A DNA stretch of 64,000 nt. It comes from Candidatus Avelusimicrobium caledoniensis (GTDB taxonomy: Bacteria; Elusimicrobiota; Elusimicrobia; Elusimicrobiales; Elusimicrobiaceae). The notes below the pieces were generated by a model that did no database searches, was not told the DNA's origin, and worked only from the letters and a program-made list of their open reading frames with translations. The DNA lies in NCBI GenBank assembly GCA_900315795.1, contig ONAM01000002.1, positions 1-64,000 on the forward strand, given 5' to 3'. The position numbers and the translations under genes were made by a program. The first letter of the stretch is position 1, and each line of letters begins with the position of its first letter. Shown in pieces: positions 2,947 through 56,259 of this stretch.

Positions 2947-3003
2947 TACGCTCTCTTTTCGTCATCCCGCAGTGTCTCTATGCGGGATATAAAAGAGAGC
3001 GTA
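2947..3003. repeat. Mosaic palindrome, copy 1 (left flank of GIY-YIG gene)
   Basis: A 31-bp core (2960-2990) carries the inner hairpin atcccgca/tgcgggat. It is enclosed by perfect 13-bp outer arms, tacgctctctttt (2947-2959) and aaaagagagcgta (2991-3003). The core is the exact reverse complement of the core at 3405-3435, while the outer arms are unrelated to the arms there. It may also act as a transcription stop. Confidence 0.85.
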
Positions 3004-3433
3004 TTTAATTTCTTCGTTCCTTCATCTTTTTAGTGGACAGGCAAATGCGGGATATAGATAAAAGGGTTGTTTTTATAAAAATGAGGGTGCTATTTCCTCA
3101 TAAAGATCGTGCCACGAGGGATTAAAAGAATTTATTAAATGTTCTTTCCAGGCACGATTCCATTCTTTCAATACTTTTTCTCGTTGTATGGCGTTTTGAA
3201 TGGAATTGTATTGCTCATAATAGACTAATTTTTTAATATGAAATTTTTTAGTAAAACCTTCCACAAAACCTTGTTTGTGTTCATACACACGTCGTAGCAA
3301 ATTATTTGTAACTCCGATATAGAGCATTTTGTTGTTTTTTGTGGTCAGTATGTAGACATATCCCATACGGTTATTTTAGCATAAAATATATATTGTCCCC
3401 CGCTATATCCCGCATAGAGACACTGCGGGATGA
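2961..3433. mobile_element. Candidate palindrome-bounded element carrying a GIY-YIG gene
   Basis: The interval begins with GTCATCCCGCA and ends with the mirror image TGCGGGATGAC, so identical cores face outward at both ends of about 470 bp. The only gene inside is the GIY-YIG open reading frame. A partial core, atgcgggatata, lies at 3045 next to the gene's stop codon. Mobility is inferred from this layout; no target duplication could be shown. Shorter composites with the same GTCAT/ATGAC ends but no gene occur at 18180-18288 and 56026-56105. Confidence 0.5.
3073..3366 (-). CDS. Small GIY-YIG nuclease-family protein (YhbQ/UPF0213-like)
   Basis: This 97-residue single-domain protein begins MGYVYILTTKNNKMLYIGVT. 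It shows the family's Y-V-Y-I-L...Y-I-G-V-T core at residues 3-20, the Arg of NLLRRVYEHK and the family's usual later segment Y-Y-E...A-I-Q-R-E-K-V-L-K-E-W. GIY-YIG domains are metal-dependent DNA-cleaving folds; the cellular role of these very small stand-alone members is poorly defined. The gene is complete, and its start codon at 3366 is the first ATG. It is isolated on the - strand, has no operon partner, and is flanked on both sides by inverted copies of the same palindromic core. That makes a link to repeat mobility plausible but unproven. Confidence 0.85.
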   Translation of the reverse strand: MGYVYILTTKNNKMLYIGVTNNLLRRVYEHKQGFVEGFTKKFHIKKLVYYEQYNSIQNAIQREKVLKEWNRAWKEHLINSFNPSWHDLYEEIAPSFL

Positions 3434-3444
3434 CGAGCGGGGGA
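3396..3444. repeat. Mosaic palindrome, copy 2 (right flank of GIY-YIG gene)
   Basis: The core at 3405-3435 is identical, in inverted orientation, to that at 2960-2990. Its outer arms are a different perfect 9-bp pair, tcccccgct (3396-3404) and agcggggga (3436-3444). It lies 5 bp past the stop codon of pilin 1 and could serve as that gene's terminator. Confidence 0.85.
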
Positions 3445-3947: not shown

Positions 3948-3978
3948 GTAGTTTCTCCTTTTATTTTTTCGTCTCTTT

Positions 3979-4006
3979 ATTATCGTTTTTTTTTTTGATT
4001 TGTCAA
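3979..4006 (-). promoter_or_regulatory. Pilin 1 promoter with 11-A spacer tract
   Basis: On the - strand TTGACA (4006-4001) is followed by AATC, eleven A, C and then GATAAT (3984-3979), giving a 16-bp spacer. The same arrangement precedes pilins 2, 4 and 5. The -35 match is perfect. Confidence 0.85.
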
Positions 4007-17627: not shown

Positions 17628-18350
17628 CTATAATTGCCAGGCCCCGTTAGCATAAATCCCTTTCATAATTTTCTTGCAGTAATTCCCGGAGTGTTGTTGA
17701 AAAATGACGGAGCCATCTCCTTCGTACTGATTTTCCACGCATAACATAGTTCGGGTGGTGCTATTCATAGACCCCGCGCCCAGTAAATACCGAAATCCGG
17801 CCCCAGCGTAGGGACCGGTCAGCCGTCCGACGGATATGCCGTCGCCGCTTGCTTCGTGAAAAATCTGCAAGCTCCAATCTTCGTTGGAACGGACTCCATC
17901 AGTGGGACTGCTCCCGGCAATCCAGCGGGTGGTGCCCGTCCAGGGAATATCAACGGCTAATTCATCAAAATTGGTAGCGTATGTTCCGTTTTGTAAATAA
18001 TAGGATTCTTGCGCGGCGGCTACGGTGCGAATGATGGCCAATGCCTGTGTGGCTTTGCTTTTTTCTACTGCTTTTTGGTATTGCGGCACGGCTACCGCGG
18101 CTAAAATACCGATGATAAGAACGACCACTAAAAGTTCAATGAGCGTAAATGCGTTTATGCGATTATAACATAAAGGCCTGTCATCCCCGAGGGTTTCTGT
18201 CGGGGATCTTCGTTTTTCTTTTCGCTTGTTAACCATCTCATCAAAAACAAAAATACGAAGATGCCGGATAGAGGCCTTCCGGCATGACATGCTTATTTTA
18301 ACGTCAGGTTTCACCTGACCTACATTTCCCTTTTGAATTTTGTTATTCAT
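17628..18350 (-). CDS. Type IV pilin-like protein 2 with 67-residue leader
   Basis: This 240-residue prepilin has the cleavage and helix segment [20 protein letters not shown] beginning at residue 67. The other pilins here have leaders of 4-7 residues, so the leader is about 60 residues too long. The extra part is encoded by palindromic repeats: 18180-18288 plus gtcaggtttcacctgac at 18303-18319. They leave the frame open. ATG 18350 follows GGAGAA and the shared A-tract promoter, so this is the ancestral start. In-frame Met residues at 21 and 39 are alternatives. The mature part looks intact, with a late Cys pair (LCVEN...NYCKK). Whether such a leader is exported and processed is open; the gene may be on its way to inactivation. 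Confidence 0.85.
   Translation of the reverse strand: MNNKIQKGNVGQVKPDVKISMSCRKASIRHLRIFVFDEMVNKRKEKRRSPTETLGDDRPLCYNRINAFTLIELLVVVLIIGILAAVAVPQYQKAVEKSKATQALAIIRTVAAAQESYYLQNGTYATNFDELAVDIPWTGTTRWIAGSSPTDGVRSNEDWSLQIFHEASGDGISVGRLTGPYAGAGFRYLLGAGSMNSTTRTMLCVENQYEGDGSVIFQQHSGNYCKKIMKGIYANGAWQL
18180..18288. repeat. Composite palindromic element inside pilin 2 leader
   Basis: Two hairpins are arranged head to head: gtcatccccga/tcggggat (18180-18207) and atgccgga/tccggcatgac (18261-18288). The facing sequences atcttcg (18206-18212) and cgaagat (18256-18262) are also complementary, so the whole 109 bp can fold as one structure with GTCAT and ATGAC termini. It interrupts the pilin leader in frame. 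The termini match those around the GIY-YIG gene (2961, 3433). Confidence 0.8.
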
Positions 18351-18379
18351 AAAATTCTCCTTGTTTTTTCCGTTCCTTT

Positions 18380-18407
18380 ATTATCGTTTTTTTTTTTGAT
18401 TTGTCAA
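18380..18407 (-). promoter_or_regulatory. Pilin 2 promoter with 11-A spacer tract
   Basis: The - strand reads TTGACA (18407-18402), AATC, eleven A, C, GATAAT (18385-18380). It is the same as at pilin 1, including tract length. Confidence 0.85.
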
Positions 18408-18449
18408 GCAAAATTTATCAGCCCGCCAAGATTAGGGTTTGGTAATGCA

Positions 18450-19669: not shown

Positions 19670-20198
19670 ATAAAATAACTTCCAGGGGCAGGTTGCGTAA
19701 ATCGGCGTTACTCGCGCGCATCTCTTTCAGGGCGGCTACATCGGTTAAATGGACGGAAAGCACGATTTCTTTTCCTTTGGCTTGTAATGCTTTTCGCACC
19801 GCGGCGAGCGTTTGGCCTGTGGCTAAAATATCGTCTATATAGATGAAATGAGAAAATTGATCTAATAAATCTTCATCCGCTTCCATATTATACGAGGTAT
19901 ATTCGTTTGTAATACGGAACGCGTAGGGTTTATGGGGAATTTTGCCTTGTTTGCGTAGGAGCACCAGCGGCAAATTCAGCGCGTGAGCAACGGGCGCGGC
20001 AAAAATAAACCCGCGTGCTTCGGGTGTGATGATAGCCGTATTTTGTGGTATATGCGCCGCTTGGATGACGCTACAAAAGGTATCAATGACGGCAGTAAAT
20101 TGCGCCGGGTTAGCAAGCAAGGGGTTAATATCAATAAAATTCACGCCCGCTTTGGGATAATCTTTTACTATATTTAGTTTAAAATTGAGTTTTTCCAT
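19668..20198 (-). CDS. apt: Adenine phosphoribosyltransferase
   Basis: This 176-residue purine-salvage enzyme makes AMP from adenine and PRPP. The PRPP-binding motif is fiyIDDilATGqT at about residues 116-128. The family's N-terminal pattern, vkdyPkaGvnfiDInpLLa, and the flexible-loop pattern llRKqGKiPhk...yn-ME are present. Start ATG 20198 lies 17 bp after the small upstream gene, so the two should be co-transcribed. A structured leader precedes that gene. Confidence 0.92.
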   Translation of the reverse strand: MEKLNFKLNIVKDYPKAGVNFIDINPLLANPAQFTAVIDTFCSVIQAAHIPQNTAIITPEARGFIFAAPVAHALNLPLVLLRKQGKIPHKPYAFRITNEYTSYNMEADEDLLDQFSHFIYIDDILATGQTLAAVRKALQAKGKEIVLSVHLTDVAALKEMRASNADLRNLPLEVIL

Positions 20199-20215
20199 AC
20201 CTCTAGTATAACAAA

Positions 20216-20437
20216 TTATTCTTCCGGTTTGGGCAGCGCGGCGACATTTAATTTTATAACCGCGGCCCGGTGTTGCGCGGCGTGCAAACCGGTTAAAATC
20301 GGGCGGGTGTAATCTTGTATTTCTTCAGGTACGACGGCGTGTAATTCTTCCAGCTGTTCTGTTAGTAAAGTTAGTTGCGTTTGCAGGCGGGCGGCGTCCC
20401 ATAACAGGACCGTCAAGGGGTCTTTTTCTTCGGTCAT
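20216..20437 (-). CDS. Small helical protein of unknown function
   Basis: This protein of about 73 residues starts MTEEKDPLTVLLWDAARLQ at ATG 20437, with GGAGAA upstream. It is predicted to be all-helical, with a leucine-rich stretch (taarlqtqltllteqleel) suited to coiled-coil pairing and no Cys. An upstream in-frame codon would add residues translated from the structured leader and is unlikely. It is the first gene of a two-gene unit with apt. I do not recognise the family. Confidence 0.6.
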   Translation of the reverse strand: MTEEKDPLTVLLWDAARLQTQLTLLTEQLEELHAVVPEEIQDYTRPILTGLHAAQHRAAVIKLNVAALPKPEE

Positions 20438-20482
20438 ACGTTTCTCCGTGGGCCGCCGATAAAAACGGCCATTTATACTAGA

Positions 20483-20612
20483 CCCAAGAGAGAGTTCCGC
20501 ATATAAACAGCCGTGGCTTATTACACAAAGTAATAAGCGCTCGGCATAACACACGCGGGTAATTAGGCCGGTTGCATTACGCCTTAGCGGACTGTTTATG
20601 AGCTCTCTTGGG
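20483..20612 (-). ncRNA. Structured leader or small RNA upstream of the apt unit
   Basis: The outer arms cccaagagag (20483-20492) and ctctcttggg (20603-20612) are perfectly complementary. Inside them ataaacag (20503-20510) pairs with ctgtttat (20592-20599), and a perfect 9-bp hairpin gcttattac/gtaataagc lies at 20516-20538. A - strand extended -10 (TTTGCTATACT, 20674-20684) is placed so that this region would be the 5' leader of the small gene and apt. It matches no riboswitch I can name; it may instead be another nested palindrome. Confidence 0.45.
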
Positions 20613-20673
20613 CTTTGCTTAAAGCAAGACTTCGTTTTTTCTCAAAACAGAATAAATTTAATACAACGTAATC

Positions 20674-20684
20674 AGTATAGCAAA
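20674..20684 (-). promoter_or_regulatory. Probable promoter of the apt unit
   Basis: The - strand reads TTTGCTATACT, an extended -10 matching the form used elsewhere in the window. It lies about 240 bp before ATG 20437, leaving room for the structured leader. Confidence 0.55.
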
Positions 20685-20714
20685 TTTTATGGGAAAACAT
20701 CCCGCCAAAATCTC

Positions 20715-20822
20715 CCTCGCTCATCACCCCGCAGTGTTTTAATGCGGGGTATAGCGAGGCAAATGTGGCAAGTGCGCCCCTTATATCCCGCATACCGACC
20801 TTGCGGGATGACGGAAGGGGCG
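20715..20822. repeat. Inverted pair of mosaic palindromes (copies 3 and 4)
   Basis: Copy 3 has arms cctcgct/agcgagg (20715-20721, 20753-20759) around a 31-bp core. Copy 4 has arms cgcccctt/aaggggcg (20775-20782, 20815-20822) around an opposite-facing core plus one extra base. Copy 3's inner stem is accccgca/tgcggggt, a paired change relative to atcccgca/tgcgggat in the copies at 2960 and 3405. The interval between the two copies is 15 bp and holds no gene. Confidence 0.85.
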
Positions 20823-20886
20823 ATAGCAAATTTTACAAGACAAGGGACCGCAAAGACGGCTAAATGTGGAAAATTGTATCGCCGGT

Positions 20887-20927
20887 GCGCTACAAAATTC
20901 AAAAAGATATTTTTGAATTTTGTGCGC
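20887..20927. repeat. Long A/T-rich hairpin
   Basis: gcgc-t-acaaaattcaaaaa (20887-20905) pairs with tttttgaattttgtgcgc (20910-20927), broken only by one unpaired t, around a 4-base loop. The rest of 20823-21050 shows no gene. This could terminate transcription entering from either side of the ribosomal operon. Confidence 0.7.
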
Positions 20928-21050
20928 TTAATTAAATATTGCGTTATTTTTCTATTTATAGTATACTATCCTTATCAGGATTTTAGTGACACGCCCGTTT
21001 ACGCGCAAGGGTGAAACCGCTAAAACAAGCGTGCACAAAAGCCCGCTAAT

Positions 21051-21060
21051 TTGATATAAT
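21051..21060 (+). promoter_or_regulatory. Promoter of the S10-spc operon
   Basis: TTGATATAAT is a perfect TATAAT (21055-21060) with an extended TG and no good -35. The leader of about 125 nt that follows contains complementary stretches (ccggcccg/cggaccgg near 21102-21124), which could be an S10-type control leader. Confidence 0.75.
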
Positions 21061-21193
21061 AAATTGTATTAGATTAGCAGTAAGGCAAAAAATTCCTCAC
21101 CGGCCCGACGGAAGACGCGGACCGGAAAGGGGTTTTCTGCCGATAAATTGTTTGTAAGAAACTTTGTAAAAGATAGTAAGGAAAAAACTAAAA

Positions 21194-21538
21194 ATGGCAG
21201 AAAAAACAGCAAAAAAAGCCAATACTATTGGCCAAGAAAGAATCCGCATTAAATTGCGTTCTTATGACCATCGTATGCTGGACGCTTCTGTGGCGCGTAT
21301 CGTAGAAACCGCGCAAAAAACAGGGGCGCTGGTGTCGGGTCCTGTTCTGTTACCGGTCCGGATTAAAAAGTACACCGTACTTCGCTCTCCCCATACCGAT
21401 AAAAAGAGCAGAGAACAATTTGAGATGCGCATTCACAAACGTCTCATTGACTTGAAAAGCCCCACCTCTAAAACCGTGGACGAACTAATGAAATTAGATT
21501 TGCCCGCCGGTGTAGATGTGGCCATTAAAAGTAACTAA
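21194..21538 (+). CDS. rpsJ: Ribosomal protein uS10
   Basis: This 114-residue protein of the 30S head carries the family core [21 protein letters not shown] and the later [19 protein letters not shown]. A short Lys/Ala-rich extension precedes the usual start of homology. TAAGGA is upstream. It opens the long ribosomal operon and can also be a NusB partner in antitermination. Confidence 0.97.
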
Positions 21539-21554
21539 GGAATAAATAAGAACT

Positions 21555-22346
21555 ATGACAGAAGAAATGCAAAATGCTGCTGGTGCCCAAGAGGCAACGC
21601 CCGTTGCTGAACCGGCCAAAGCAGAAACTGTCAAAGAAGCTCCCGAAACTTTCCGCTTTGTAATCGGCGAAAAGATCGGCATGACACAGCTCTTTGATGA
21701 AAAAGGCAATCTGCATGGTGTATCCGTTGTAAAAGCGGGTCCGTGCAAGGTTGTGCGTGTCAGAACCCAAGAAAAAGACGGCTACAACGCCGTTTGCGTG
21801 GGTTTTGGCGAAGTGAAAGAAAGCAAACTGAACAAACCTGAACTCGGTTATTTCAAAAAAGCCAACGTGGCTCCGGTCAAACACATGAAGGAATGCCGTG
21901 TTGCCGATGTAGCCGGCTTTGAAATCGGTCAAGTCATTTCACTCGATAAAATCTTTAAACCCGGCGACTATGTGGACGTACAGGGTAAAATTAAAGGGCA
22001 CGGTTTTGCCGGCGCGATGAAACGCCACGGCTTTGCCGGACAGCCGGATTCGCACGGTCAATCGGACCGCTCGCGCGCTCCGGGGTCTTTGGGCTCCCGC
22101 CGCTCTTTAGGTAAAGTATTGTCCGGCCAACGCATGGCTGGCCACTACGGCACCACTACCCACACGGTAGCCAAAATTGAAGTTATTAAGGTAGATAACG
22201 AAAACGGACTTTTATTCTTAAAAGGTTCCGTTCCGGGAGCTAAGGGCTCTATCGTTTCCGTCTTAGAAACTTCTAAATTCAAAAAACATTATGTAGCGCC
22301 GCAACAACAGAAAATCTCTGCTTCTAAGGCCGCTAACAAGAAATAA
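21555..22346 (+). CDS. rplC: Ribosomal protein uL3
   Basis: This 263-residue protein has the L3 core beginning at about residue 34 (frfvIGekiGMTQlFde) and the conserved loop hGfaGqpdsHGqsdrsRapGSlG...kRMAGhyG reaching the peptidyl-transferase centre. The first 33 residues are an Ala/Glu/Pro-rich tail not typical of L3, and the family is normally about 210 residues. Confidence 0.96.
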   Translation: MTEEMQNAAGAQEATPVAEPAKAETVKEAPETFRFVIGEKIGMTQLFDEKGNLHGVSVVKAGPCKVVRVRTQEKDGYNAVCVGFGEVKESKLNKPELGYFKKANVAPVKHMKECRVADVAGFEIGQVISLDKIFKPGDYVDVQGKIKGHGFAGAMKRHGFAGQPDSHGQSDRSRAPGSLGSRRSLGKVLSGQRMAGHYGTTTHTVAKIEVIKVDNENGLLFLKGSVPGAKGSIVSVLETSKFKKHYVAPQQQKISASKAANKK

Positions 22347-46337: not shown

Positions 46338-46401
46338 GAATAACCCCTAGGACGTCATCCTGAACTTGATTCAGGATCTCGTTGTGTCCTAGGGGTTATT
46401 C
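46338..46401. repeat. Mosaic palindrome with 16-bp arms
   Basis: Perfect arms, gaataacccctaggac (46338-46353) and gtcctaggggttattc (46386-46401), enclose a 32-bp core with the inner stem atcctga/tcaggat. The core begins gtcatcctgaacttgattca, a motif seen as a dispersed repeat in many bacteria. The region 46283-46510 otherwise holds only the 3' flank shared with pilins 2 and 5. Confidence 0.88.
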
Positions 46402-55515: not shown

Positions 55516-56130
55516 TTAGTAGTTCCAGCCCCATGCGGTTTCTTGCGTATAAGAGGGGGCGGAAAGGCCCGTTTCTGTTTTACAAACTTGGTTGTTGGTA
55601 TCCTTTGCGTTAATGGAATAGGCCACACAGGTTTTTAAGTTAGGGTGACCGCTCCTGTCTAACCAATGGTTATATTGTAAATAAGCCGTTCCGTTTTTAT
55701 ACAAATAACAAGATATTAGACCGCTTGATACGGGATTAGGTAAACTGCAGTAGCCCCACGAAAAATAACAAGTTCCCACGCTATTGCAACTTGTTGCCGA
55801 AACATCTATGCTCAGTTCGTTCCAATCTTTTGTGTACGTGTTGTTTGCCAAATAATATATTTCTTCAGCCCGGACCAAACTTTCGGCCATCGTTTTGGCC
55901 TGTATGTAGCGGCTTTTCCAAACGGCTTTTTGATATTGCGGTAAGGCCACCGCGGCTAAAATTCCGATAATAAGTACGACGACTAAGAGTTCAATGAGCG
56001 TAAAGCCGTTGTTGTAAAAAAAGACGTCATGCTGAACTTGATTCAGCATCTCACCTTGTTGCCGTTTTAGAAAGCGGTGAGATTCCAAATCAAGTTTGGA
56101 ATGACACTTATTTTTATTTGTGTTATTCAT
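55516..56130 (-). CDS. Type IV pilin-like protein 5 with 42-residue leader
   Basis: This 204-residue prepilin has [20 protein letters not shown] beginning at residue 42. The leader is interrupted by a palindromic element (56026-56105) that translates as the familiar repeat-encoded strings SKLDLESHRF and GEMLNQVQHD. Gly is at -1, as is classical for prepilins. The mature part resembles pilin 1 (QKAVWKSRY, Cys pair KTCVAY...QVCKTETG). ATG 56130 follows AAGGAG and the A-tract promoter. Export with this leader is uncertain; Met30 in the insert could be an alternative start giving a 13-residue leader. Confidence 0.87.
   Translation of the reverse strand: MNNTNKNKCHSKLDLESHRFLKRQQGEMLNQVQHDVFFYNNGFTLIELLVVVLIIGILAAVALPQYQKAVWKSRYIQAKTMAESLVRAEEIYYLANNTYTKDWNELSIDVSATSCNSVGTCYFSWGYCSLPNPVSSGLISCYLYKNGTAYLQYNHWLDRSGHPNLKTCVAYSINAKDTNNQVCKTETGLSAPSYTQETAWGWNY
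56026..56105. repeat. Composite palindromic element inside pilin 5 leader
   Basis: Hairpin 1 (gtcatgctga/tcagcat, 56026-56048) and hairpin 2 (attccaaa/tttggaatgac, 56082-56105) face each other, joined by complementary ctcacc and ggtgag. The ends are GTCAT and ATGAC, as in the elements at 18180 and 2961. The hairpin sequences differ from those at 18180, so the two insertions were separate. Confidence 0.85.
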
Positions 56131-56164
56131 ATTATTTGCTCCTTAAATTTTTTACTGCCCCTTT

Positions 56165-56192
56165 ATTATTGTTTTTTTTTTTGATTTGTCAA
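56165..56192 (-). promoter_or_regulatory. Pilin 5 promoter with 11-A spacer tract
   Basis: The - strand reads TTGACA (56192-56187), AATC, eleven A, C, AATAAT (56170-56165). The spacing is the same as in the other three, with one change in the -10. Confidence 0.83.
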
Positions 56193-56259
56193 GGGCTTTT
56201 TCGGGAAGGTCATTTTTAGTGATATTTGTTGTTAAAACGCGCTCTGCTTATGTAGGGAA

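Follow-up and report, generated by a model that had tools for sequence, protein, structure and literature searches.

The window analysed here (positions 1-64000 of contig C21, the whole stretch of 64,000 nucleotides) comes from a genome of 1.46 Mb in 40 contigs, referred to below as G000. Near its left end lies a standalone gene for a GIY-YIG nuclease of 97 amino acids (3073-3366, minus strand), recognised by Pfam, alignments, an AlphaFold (AF2) model and Foldseek, and this gene is enclosed by two REP units in inverted orientation. The left unit (2947-3003, plus strand) is composed of an outer arm (2947-2959), the tetranucleotide CGTC (2960-2963), an inner stem (2964-2971 with 2981-2988) that closes a 9-nt loop, the dinucleotide AT (2989-2990) and the second outer arm (2991-3003). 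It is predicted to fold as single-stranded DNA at -20.3 kcal/mol (z -9.1), and covariation over 47 units agrees with this structure. The right unit (3396-3444, minus strand) contains the left core inverted, with its GTCAT end outermost, and has a different outer arm (-18.7 kcal/mol, z -6.5). A preliminary description of this DNA had claimed two 31-bp cores, exact reverse complements of each other, facing outward around a GIY-YIG gene of 97 codons. All of this was borne out, although the cores lie one base away from where they had been placed, at 2961-2991 (plus) and 3404-3434 (minus), and each is closed by an additional complementary outer arm, so that the units extend to 2947-3003 and 3396-3444. 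Within the element, between the left unit and the gene, we also read by eye a remnant of a third unit, consisting of the right half only (TGCGGGATATA plus the arm GATAAAAGGGTTG; 3046-3069, plus strand). The arm of this half unit recurs in the full units L048 and L223, and partly in L233. Two more dispersed repeat families of ~90-140 bp occur in the window, at ~2772-2908 and 20841-20927, and have copies in congeners.

The 97-aa protein matched the Pfam families GIY-YIG (9.9e-16) and T5orf172 (2e-5), and the same search returned no further domain above cut-off and no HUH or tyrosine transposase domain. Residues Y5, Y16, G18, R26, H30, E63 and N82, which we take to be the catalytic residues of the GIY-YIG superfamily, were invariant in an alignment of 36 sequences (11 of 80 matches were dropped for in-frame stops and every second one of the remaining 69 was taken). 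Judged by this domain with its conserved Y, R, E and N, the predicted product has the features of a member of the superfamily. The AF2 model built from the 36 natural sequences reached a pLDDT of 95.9, and Foldseek placed it nearest to UPF0213 BH0048 (1.4e-4), with Slx1 next (0.022 and weaker). Slx1 cuts branched DNA, and a hairpin substrate would therefore suit an enzyme of this kind. An HMM search of the PDB retrieved the UPF0213 entries 1zg2 (5e-6) and 1ywl (0.0013), so that by both structure and HMM the top matches are UPF0213, or bacterial Slx1-like, proteins of the same fold and size, whereas identity to 1zg2 is only 26%. In the covered sections of a 2006 survey, bacterial standalone members and Slx1 were grouped as a minimal form, and the absence of a C-terminal Asn was the mark of the Slx1 cluster (PMC1564403); in contrast, Asn82 is invariant in the target family.

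The core is repeated throughout the genome. We found 31 copies within 3 mismatches, the two at the target included, and the looser pattern GTCATCCN{4,30}GGATATA gave 47 matches, 46 of which we judged to be true units (ATATA units below); reversed-pattern controls gave 0 in the first case and the control of the looser pattern likewise 0. In the window itself, [CT]GTCA hairpins with a stem of at least 7 numbered 8, against a mean of 0.85 and a maximum of 2 in 20 first-order Markov resamplings. The core repeat is not a chance occurrence. Twelve contig ends fall in or within ~75 bp of ATATA units (L039, L040, L041, L045, L046, L047, L049, L055, L056, L063, L065 and L071), and the true number of units and elements is therefore probably higher.

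Single-stranded folds predicted for six units agreed on an outer stem, an internal loop with CGTC opposite AT, an inner stem starting ATCCCG, and a terminal loop. In five of the six the inner stem had 8 bp and the loop 9 nt, L048 having 7 bp and 11 nt; z ranged from -6.5 to -10.2. We then aligned, without gaps, 47 distinct units from G000 and its congener G031, in which positions G13 to C15 are invariant and C12 is kept in at least 90%, the CGTC being unpaired in the folds. The 8-bp inner stem begins with the pairs A-T and T-A in 47/47 units and is nearly invariant, with a single covarying pair. By comparison, the outer helix is free in sequence: both partners vary in 10 of its 11 pairs, and pairing is kept in 89.4% of cells. 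The all-pairs covariation score was 0.542, as against 0.157 for shuffled and 0.095-0.186 for slid alignments, and 193 cells were changed on both sides compared with 57 after shuffling; neither value was reached in 500 shuffles. Two of the five measures failed to beat the shuffles: the pairs changed on both sides numbered 11 (10.9 shuffled), and the further pair types 35 (32.0 shuffled).

An outer arm of at least 5 bp was present in 54 of 88 distinct units from six genomes and contig L138, compared with 5% for re-paired flanks (duplicates were excluded, as were units flanked by less than 12 nt). The counts differed strongly by genome: 25/27 in G000 and 23/24 in G031, then 3/8 in G025, 3/13 in G006, 0/3 in G032, 0/11 in G035 and 0/2 on contig L138. 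The clamped hairpin, in which a variable outer helix holds CGTC in an internal loop, therefore belongs mainly to the G000/G031 lineage. About 80% of bases on the 5' side of the outer arms are pyrimidines. We also considered whether the arms had been taken from pre-existing terminator hairpins and rejected this, since the arm CAACCCTTTTATC recurs among unrelated flanks (L048, L223 and partly L233); at these differently flanked loci the identical arm is found with differing cores, and it is therefore part of the unit and travels with it. In G025 one unit sits inside the loop of a second, and in G000 there is a partial tandem duplication (L258, L070), both of which may point to breaks and rejoining at the hairpin. 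The clamped variant amounts to a natural experiment on recognition by the nuclease, the core and the CGTC/AT loop being fixed and the outer helix free except for its pairing.

Genome-wide there are four GIY-YIG matches, one within a frame of 499 codons and three standalone, and all three standalone genes are flanked by REPs. The sister of the target gene (C21:66375, 63 kb away, 76% identical) lies between two ATATA units that have arms of their own, and a paralogue on C12 (61%) is flanked by REPs of a different, CTCACC type. Repeats of the target's family also occur as dimers without a gene. One of these lies in the window (20715-20822) and consists of two outward units with the arms GCGAGG and AGGGGCG; its left unit has CATC instead of CGTC, and a compensatory change from T-A to C-G in the stem. 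A direct repeat ATAGCAAATTTTA (20677-20689 and 20823-20835) brackets this dimer and is the longest among the elements tested for target duplications, 11 of its 13 bases being scored. Further gene-less dimers are present on C2, C10, C17, C31 and C37, and the arm pair of the C17 dimer is closely similar to the two arms of the target element.

An autonomous element with small non-autonomous derivatives had been proposed from the outset, and the gene with its two repeats, the gene-less dimers and the solo units of the same repeat fit that proposal. The particular derivatives named for it do not. The composites at 18180-18288 and 56026-56105 (no strand given for either) do share the GTCAT ends, but they are REP dimers of other subfamilies, with the arms ATCTTCG and ATCTCACC, respectively, the second belonging to the CTCACC subfamily that flanks the C12 gene and not the target. 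Since their sequences differ in this way, they are unlike derivatives of the target gene's repeats, and we rejected that origin for both. The window also contains a solo CGTC-type REP with an ATCTCG tail (46354-46379, plus strand).

Both composites lie within pilin leader sequences, directly before FTLIELL, as do dimers at L043, L069 and L072; residues added at this position would be removed along with the pilin leader. Palindromes of the form GTAGGTCAGG...CCTGAC make up another small repeat family, found in pilin leaders too (window 18303-18330; L047, L050). Promoter-like cassettes are common to the pilin-like genes, and in them TTGACA is separated from a -10-like box by a homopolymer run of T (or A). 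This run is mostly 10-12 long and varies between copies (window 3950-3995, 18365-18410 and 56150-56195; L041-L074), which could give phase-variable expression of these genes.

The units might instead serve to terminate transcription in both directions, or act as RNA hairpins, and be retained near genes and pilin promoters, with only a secondary link to the nuclease. Indeed, of the 21 units that carry the GCGAGAGA arm, 18 lead into such a promoter-like cassette, which is repeated and belongs mostly to pilin-like genes, while the other 3 end at contig ends; and at the tRNA-Phe site, where an element lies in G000, a terminator-like hairpin is found in the congeners G004 and G014. A role in termination leaves unexplained why CGTC and AT are conserved and unpaired, why one gene sits midway between two units, and why the repeats are linked across phyla to one protein family. 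We regard it as very improbable.

Within the genus, the association of gene and repeat was observed again. General ATC-type REPs numbered 12-100 in 9/9 genomes with a strong gene match (E<1e-20), compared with at least 10 in 2/28 genomes without one (37 genomes, G000 included; Fisher 4.4e-7). Among the 20 genomes that are at least 90% complete, at least 10 REPs were found in 3/3 with the gene and 1/17 without (p 0.0035). Palindromes abundant in genomes lacking the gene had been named beforehand as evidence that would speak against the link. Two of the 28 are of this kind (G033 with 30 REPs and G009 with 12) and three more have 5-9 (G001 9, G029 9, G019 5); otherwise the co-occurrence is strong.

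The subfamilies gave a similar, if less tidy, picture. A gene of the target type (at least 74% identity) was present among 36 congeners only in G031, whose copy is 87% identical to the target, and in G025. ATATA units judged to be true occur in G000, G031, G006, G025, G035 and G032, and elsewhere no genome has more than 2 matches, which look like chance. Three of these units are in G032, which has no gene, and units of G006 and G035 share the target's core, but the genes of these two genomes are of other subfamilies (53-60% identity). CTCACC REPs number 57 in G000, 21 in G004, 6 in G031, 4 in G036 and one each in three more, with 0 in 54 of 61 genomes; REPs of this type flank the genes of G000 C12, G004 and G036 C23, but a gene of that subfamily was not found in G031 despite its 6 matches. 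Of 19 strong GIY-YIG loci in the order, 17 were examined, and outward hairpins lay on both sides at 8 and on either side at 13. The misses include L012 of G025, where both flanking units face inward, and some others with variant repeats that escape the GTCA test. Around less similar GIY-YIG genes in relatives, the figures were 1/13 for both sides and 4/13 for either (one of 14 loci was dropped for a short flank).

The position of the gene varies between species at the loci compared in congeners. The copy at C21:66375 has an oxidoreductase gene on one side and tRNA-Phe on the other. The oxidoreductase gene was found in all but one of the 22 congeners searched, and in 21/21 no GIY-YIG gene follows it; in one of these, G011, the sequence ends 50 bp downstream, but that genome has no GIY-YIG match anywhere. 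In G004 and G014, tRNA-Phe follows within ~100 bp of the oxidoreductase gene, the hairpin mentioned above lying between them. At the 5S-side site, downstream of 5S, no element was present in any of the three relatives with a readable flank (G014, G018 and G036), and at the site of the G031 copy, six other congeners have no GIY-YIG gene, G000 having a solo unit there. Sites with the gene that are empty in relatives therefore suggest movement of the gene together with its units; in individual cases, loss in the other genomes may be the explanation. Because the flanks are too diverged, no base-exact empty site or exact boundary was found at the sites compared in congeners, and the match table for window 20000-21600 likewise contained no clean empty site.

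Direct repeats between flanks, compared in 11 rows, revealed no consistent target-site duplication. In 9 of the 11 the longest repeat did not exceed the control 95% value (7), and the remaining two had 9 bp and 11 bp, the control maximum being 10; at the target element it was 4 bp. Ten elements were properly tested in this way, since the right end in the L011 row had been set at a more distant unit. In lacking a consistent target-site duplication, the element differs from a classical DDE transposon.

A different explanation of the pairing is that a resident Ssn enzyme cuts incoming or exposed single-stranded DNA at genomic repeats and so tunes natural transformation or recombination; in that case ordinary recombination would have spread the repeats, with no part played by the nuclease in moving them. 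A role of this sort has reportedly been published for Neisseria Ssn with its NTS repeats. The present genome moreover abounds in genes for type IV pilin-like proteins, and REPs occur in some of these; in the covered sections of PMC3733652 the Neisseria repeat dRS3 is a CGTC-1 REP. Against this stand the non-conserved positions of the gene, the lack of a strong match in 28 of 37 genus genomes, and the occurrence of the gene and both units together at different loci, which is not predicted for a resident gene. We consider host function of this kind unlikely as the main explanation, though a serious contender.

When one genome was scanned for each species, at least 581 relatives were confirmed, of which the best 80, from many phyla, were taken; the best named homologue among the matches listed was L138, from an uncultured Elusimicrobium (73% identity), and the host is therefore probably related to Elusimicrobium. 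We scored outward GTCA hairpins within 250 bp of the gene at 78 loci, 2 of the 80 being dropped for short flanks. Such hairpins were present on the left at 64/78, on the right at 55/78, on both sides at 47/78 and on either side at 72/78, whereas control positions in the same loci gave 11/78 on the left, 6/78 on the right and 1/78 on both. Six of the 78 homologue loci had no outward hairpin on either side. An exact inverted repeat of at least 14 bp between left and right was found at 34/78 loci versus 0/78 in the control. Inward hairpins were also common around the homologues (left 26, right 34, both 11 of 78). The pairing of this GIY-YIG family with outward hairpins is general across phyla, and we have almost no doubt that the association of the gene with these repeats is real.

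Among these units, stems start with AT in 100/109, and protein similarity was correlated with unit similarity (Mantel r 0.39, 0/2000 permutations, host phylogeny being ignored). For this comparison and for unit tails, 19 of the 80 loci were dropped because they had no usable unit or protein. Together with the subfamilies flanking the genes of G000, these are signs of family-specific matching between gene and repeat. Chance or hitch-hiking, with small genes and REPs piling up in the same intergenic islands, would predict some adjacency in a genome as rich in REPs as G000. It would not predict the excess of two-sided hairpins over control positions in the same loci, their near absence around other GIY-YIG genes in relatives, or the matching of subfamilies, and we regard it as largely refuted.

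These results suggest a model whereby an Ssn-type GIY-YIG nuclease gene resides within a REPtron-like element, flanked in inverted orientation by two copies of the hairpin that its product recognises, and we favour this reading with moderate confidence. The protein would be a minimal, structure-selective GIY-YIG (Ssn-type) nuclease, structurally nearest to UPF0213 and Slx1, encoded between two cognate hairpins. It most likely recognises the hairpin in single-stranded DNA, whether on the lagging strand, during repair or in DNA that has been taken up, and we think it quite likely that it also cuts the hairpin in this form. The most likely cut site is the CGTC junction, a branch of the type cut by Slx1-like nucleases. 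Nicking there, followed by repair or by recombination between copies, might disperse units and gene-less dimers, and the same nicking and recombination might shuffle cores and arms; in the target lineage, the extra outer helix of free sequence would lock CGTC in its internal loop. That the protein in this way mobilises the repeats is a more tentative proposal, about which we are evenly divided at best. Several observations weigh against the favoured reading: the lack of a base-exact empty site and of a consistent target duplication, the REP-bearing genomes without the gene, the shared cores of G006 and G035, the CTCACC repeats of G031 without their gene, the inward units of G025, the frequency of inward hairpins, the neglect of host phylogeny in the Mantel test, and the six loci at which no outward hairpin was found.

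How does this element compare with known systems? In the covered sections of the catalogue of Di Nocera, De Gregorio and Rocco (2013, PMC3733652), CGTC-tagged REPs have an unpaired CGTC, stems of 8-9 bp starting with AT, loops of 4-5 nt and a short unpaired tail that is mostly CCA. The units described here share with them the unpaired CGTC at one end and the 8-bp stem starting with AT, as well as high copy number (46 units), many inverted dimers, and an intergenic and sometimes intragenic location. The repeats that surround GIY-YIG genes in bacteria at large fit this class, and units flanking homologous GIY-YIG genes elsewhere carry the typical CCA tail at 47/61 loci. In contrast, the target units have an ATA tail, a 9-nt loop and a variable outer helix enclosing CGTC, a form of which we saw no example in those sections. 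Lacking the 4-5 nt loop and the CCA tail, the target repeat is a variant and not a typical CGTC-REP.

The proposal of a GIY-YIG protein in this role had been offered as new, and it is so only in part. A 2025 study is said to have described Ssn, a family of GIY-YIG nucleases with many homologues and with specificity for single-stranded repeats (NTS) in Neisseria, and to have presented it as a single-stranded DNA nuclease that modulates transformation. On that account Ssn, like the target, would be a small GIY-YIG protein that stands alone and has cognate repeats in the genome. Among the matches listed in a literature search (titles, starts of abstracts and term counts), none linked GIY-YIG to REPs, an absence that is unproven because most subscription papers and preprints were outside its scope; nor does the word GIY occur in the text of PMC3733652.

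The parallel with REPs and their RAYT nuclease, also drawn in the preliminary description, has held up, with GIY-YIG replacing the tyrosine transposase. A REPtron, in the covered sections of PMC3733652, consists of a RAYT tyrosine transposase with GTAG REPs. Common to both are a REP-flanked gene, many dimers and solo units, and repeat-specific genes where families coexist. They differ in that the enzyme here is GIY-YIG and not an HUH tyrosine transposase, and the tag is CGTC and not GTAG; RAYT and IS200-IS605 (HUH-Y1) proteins likewise differ from it by their HUH motif and catalytic tyrosine domain. In those sections CGTC-REPs were catalogued in 2013 as apparently without a dedicated transposase (PMC3733652), and here they are paired across phyla with one small GIY-YIG family, so that the question of how they spread can be put to a direct test with a protein of 97 aa and short oligonucleotides. 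At somewhat less than even odds, we would go further and propose that CGTC-REPs, found across many bacterial phyla, descend from GIY-YIG elements as their non-autonomous derivatives; this would be a second, independent REPtron system, with a GIY-YIG nuclease in the place of the RAYT tyrosine transposase, and in the Elusimicrobium-like lineage it would have evolved the clamped hairpin, whose outer helix of free sequence presents the CGTC tag as an internal loop.
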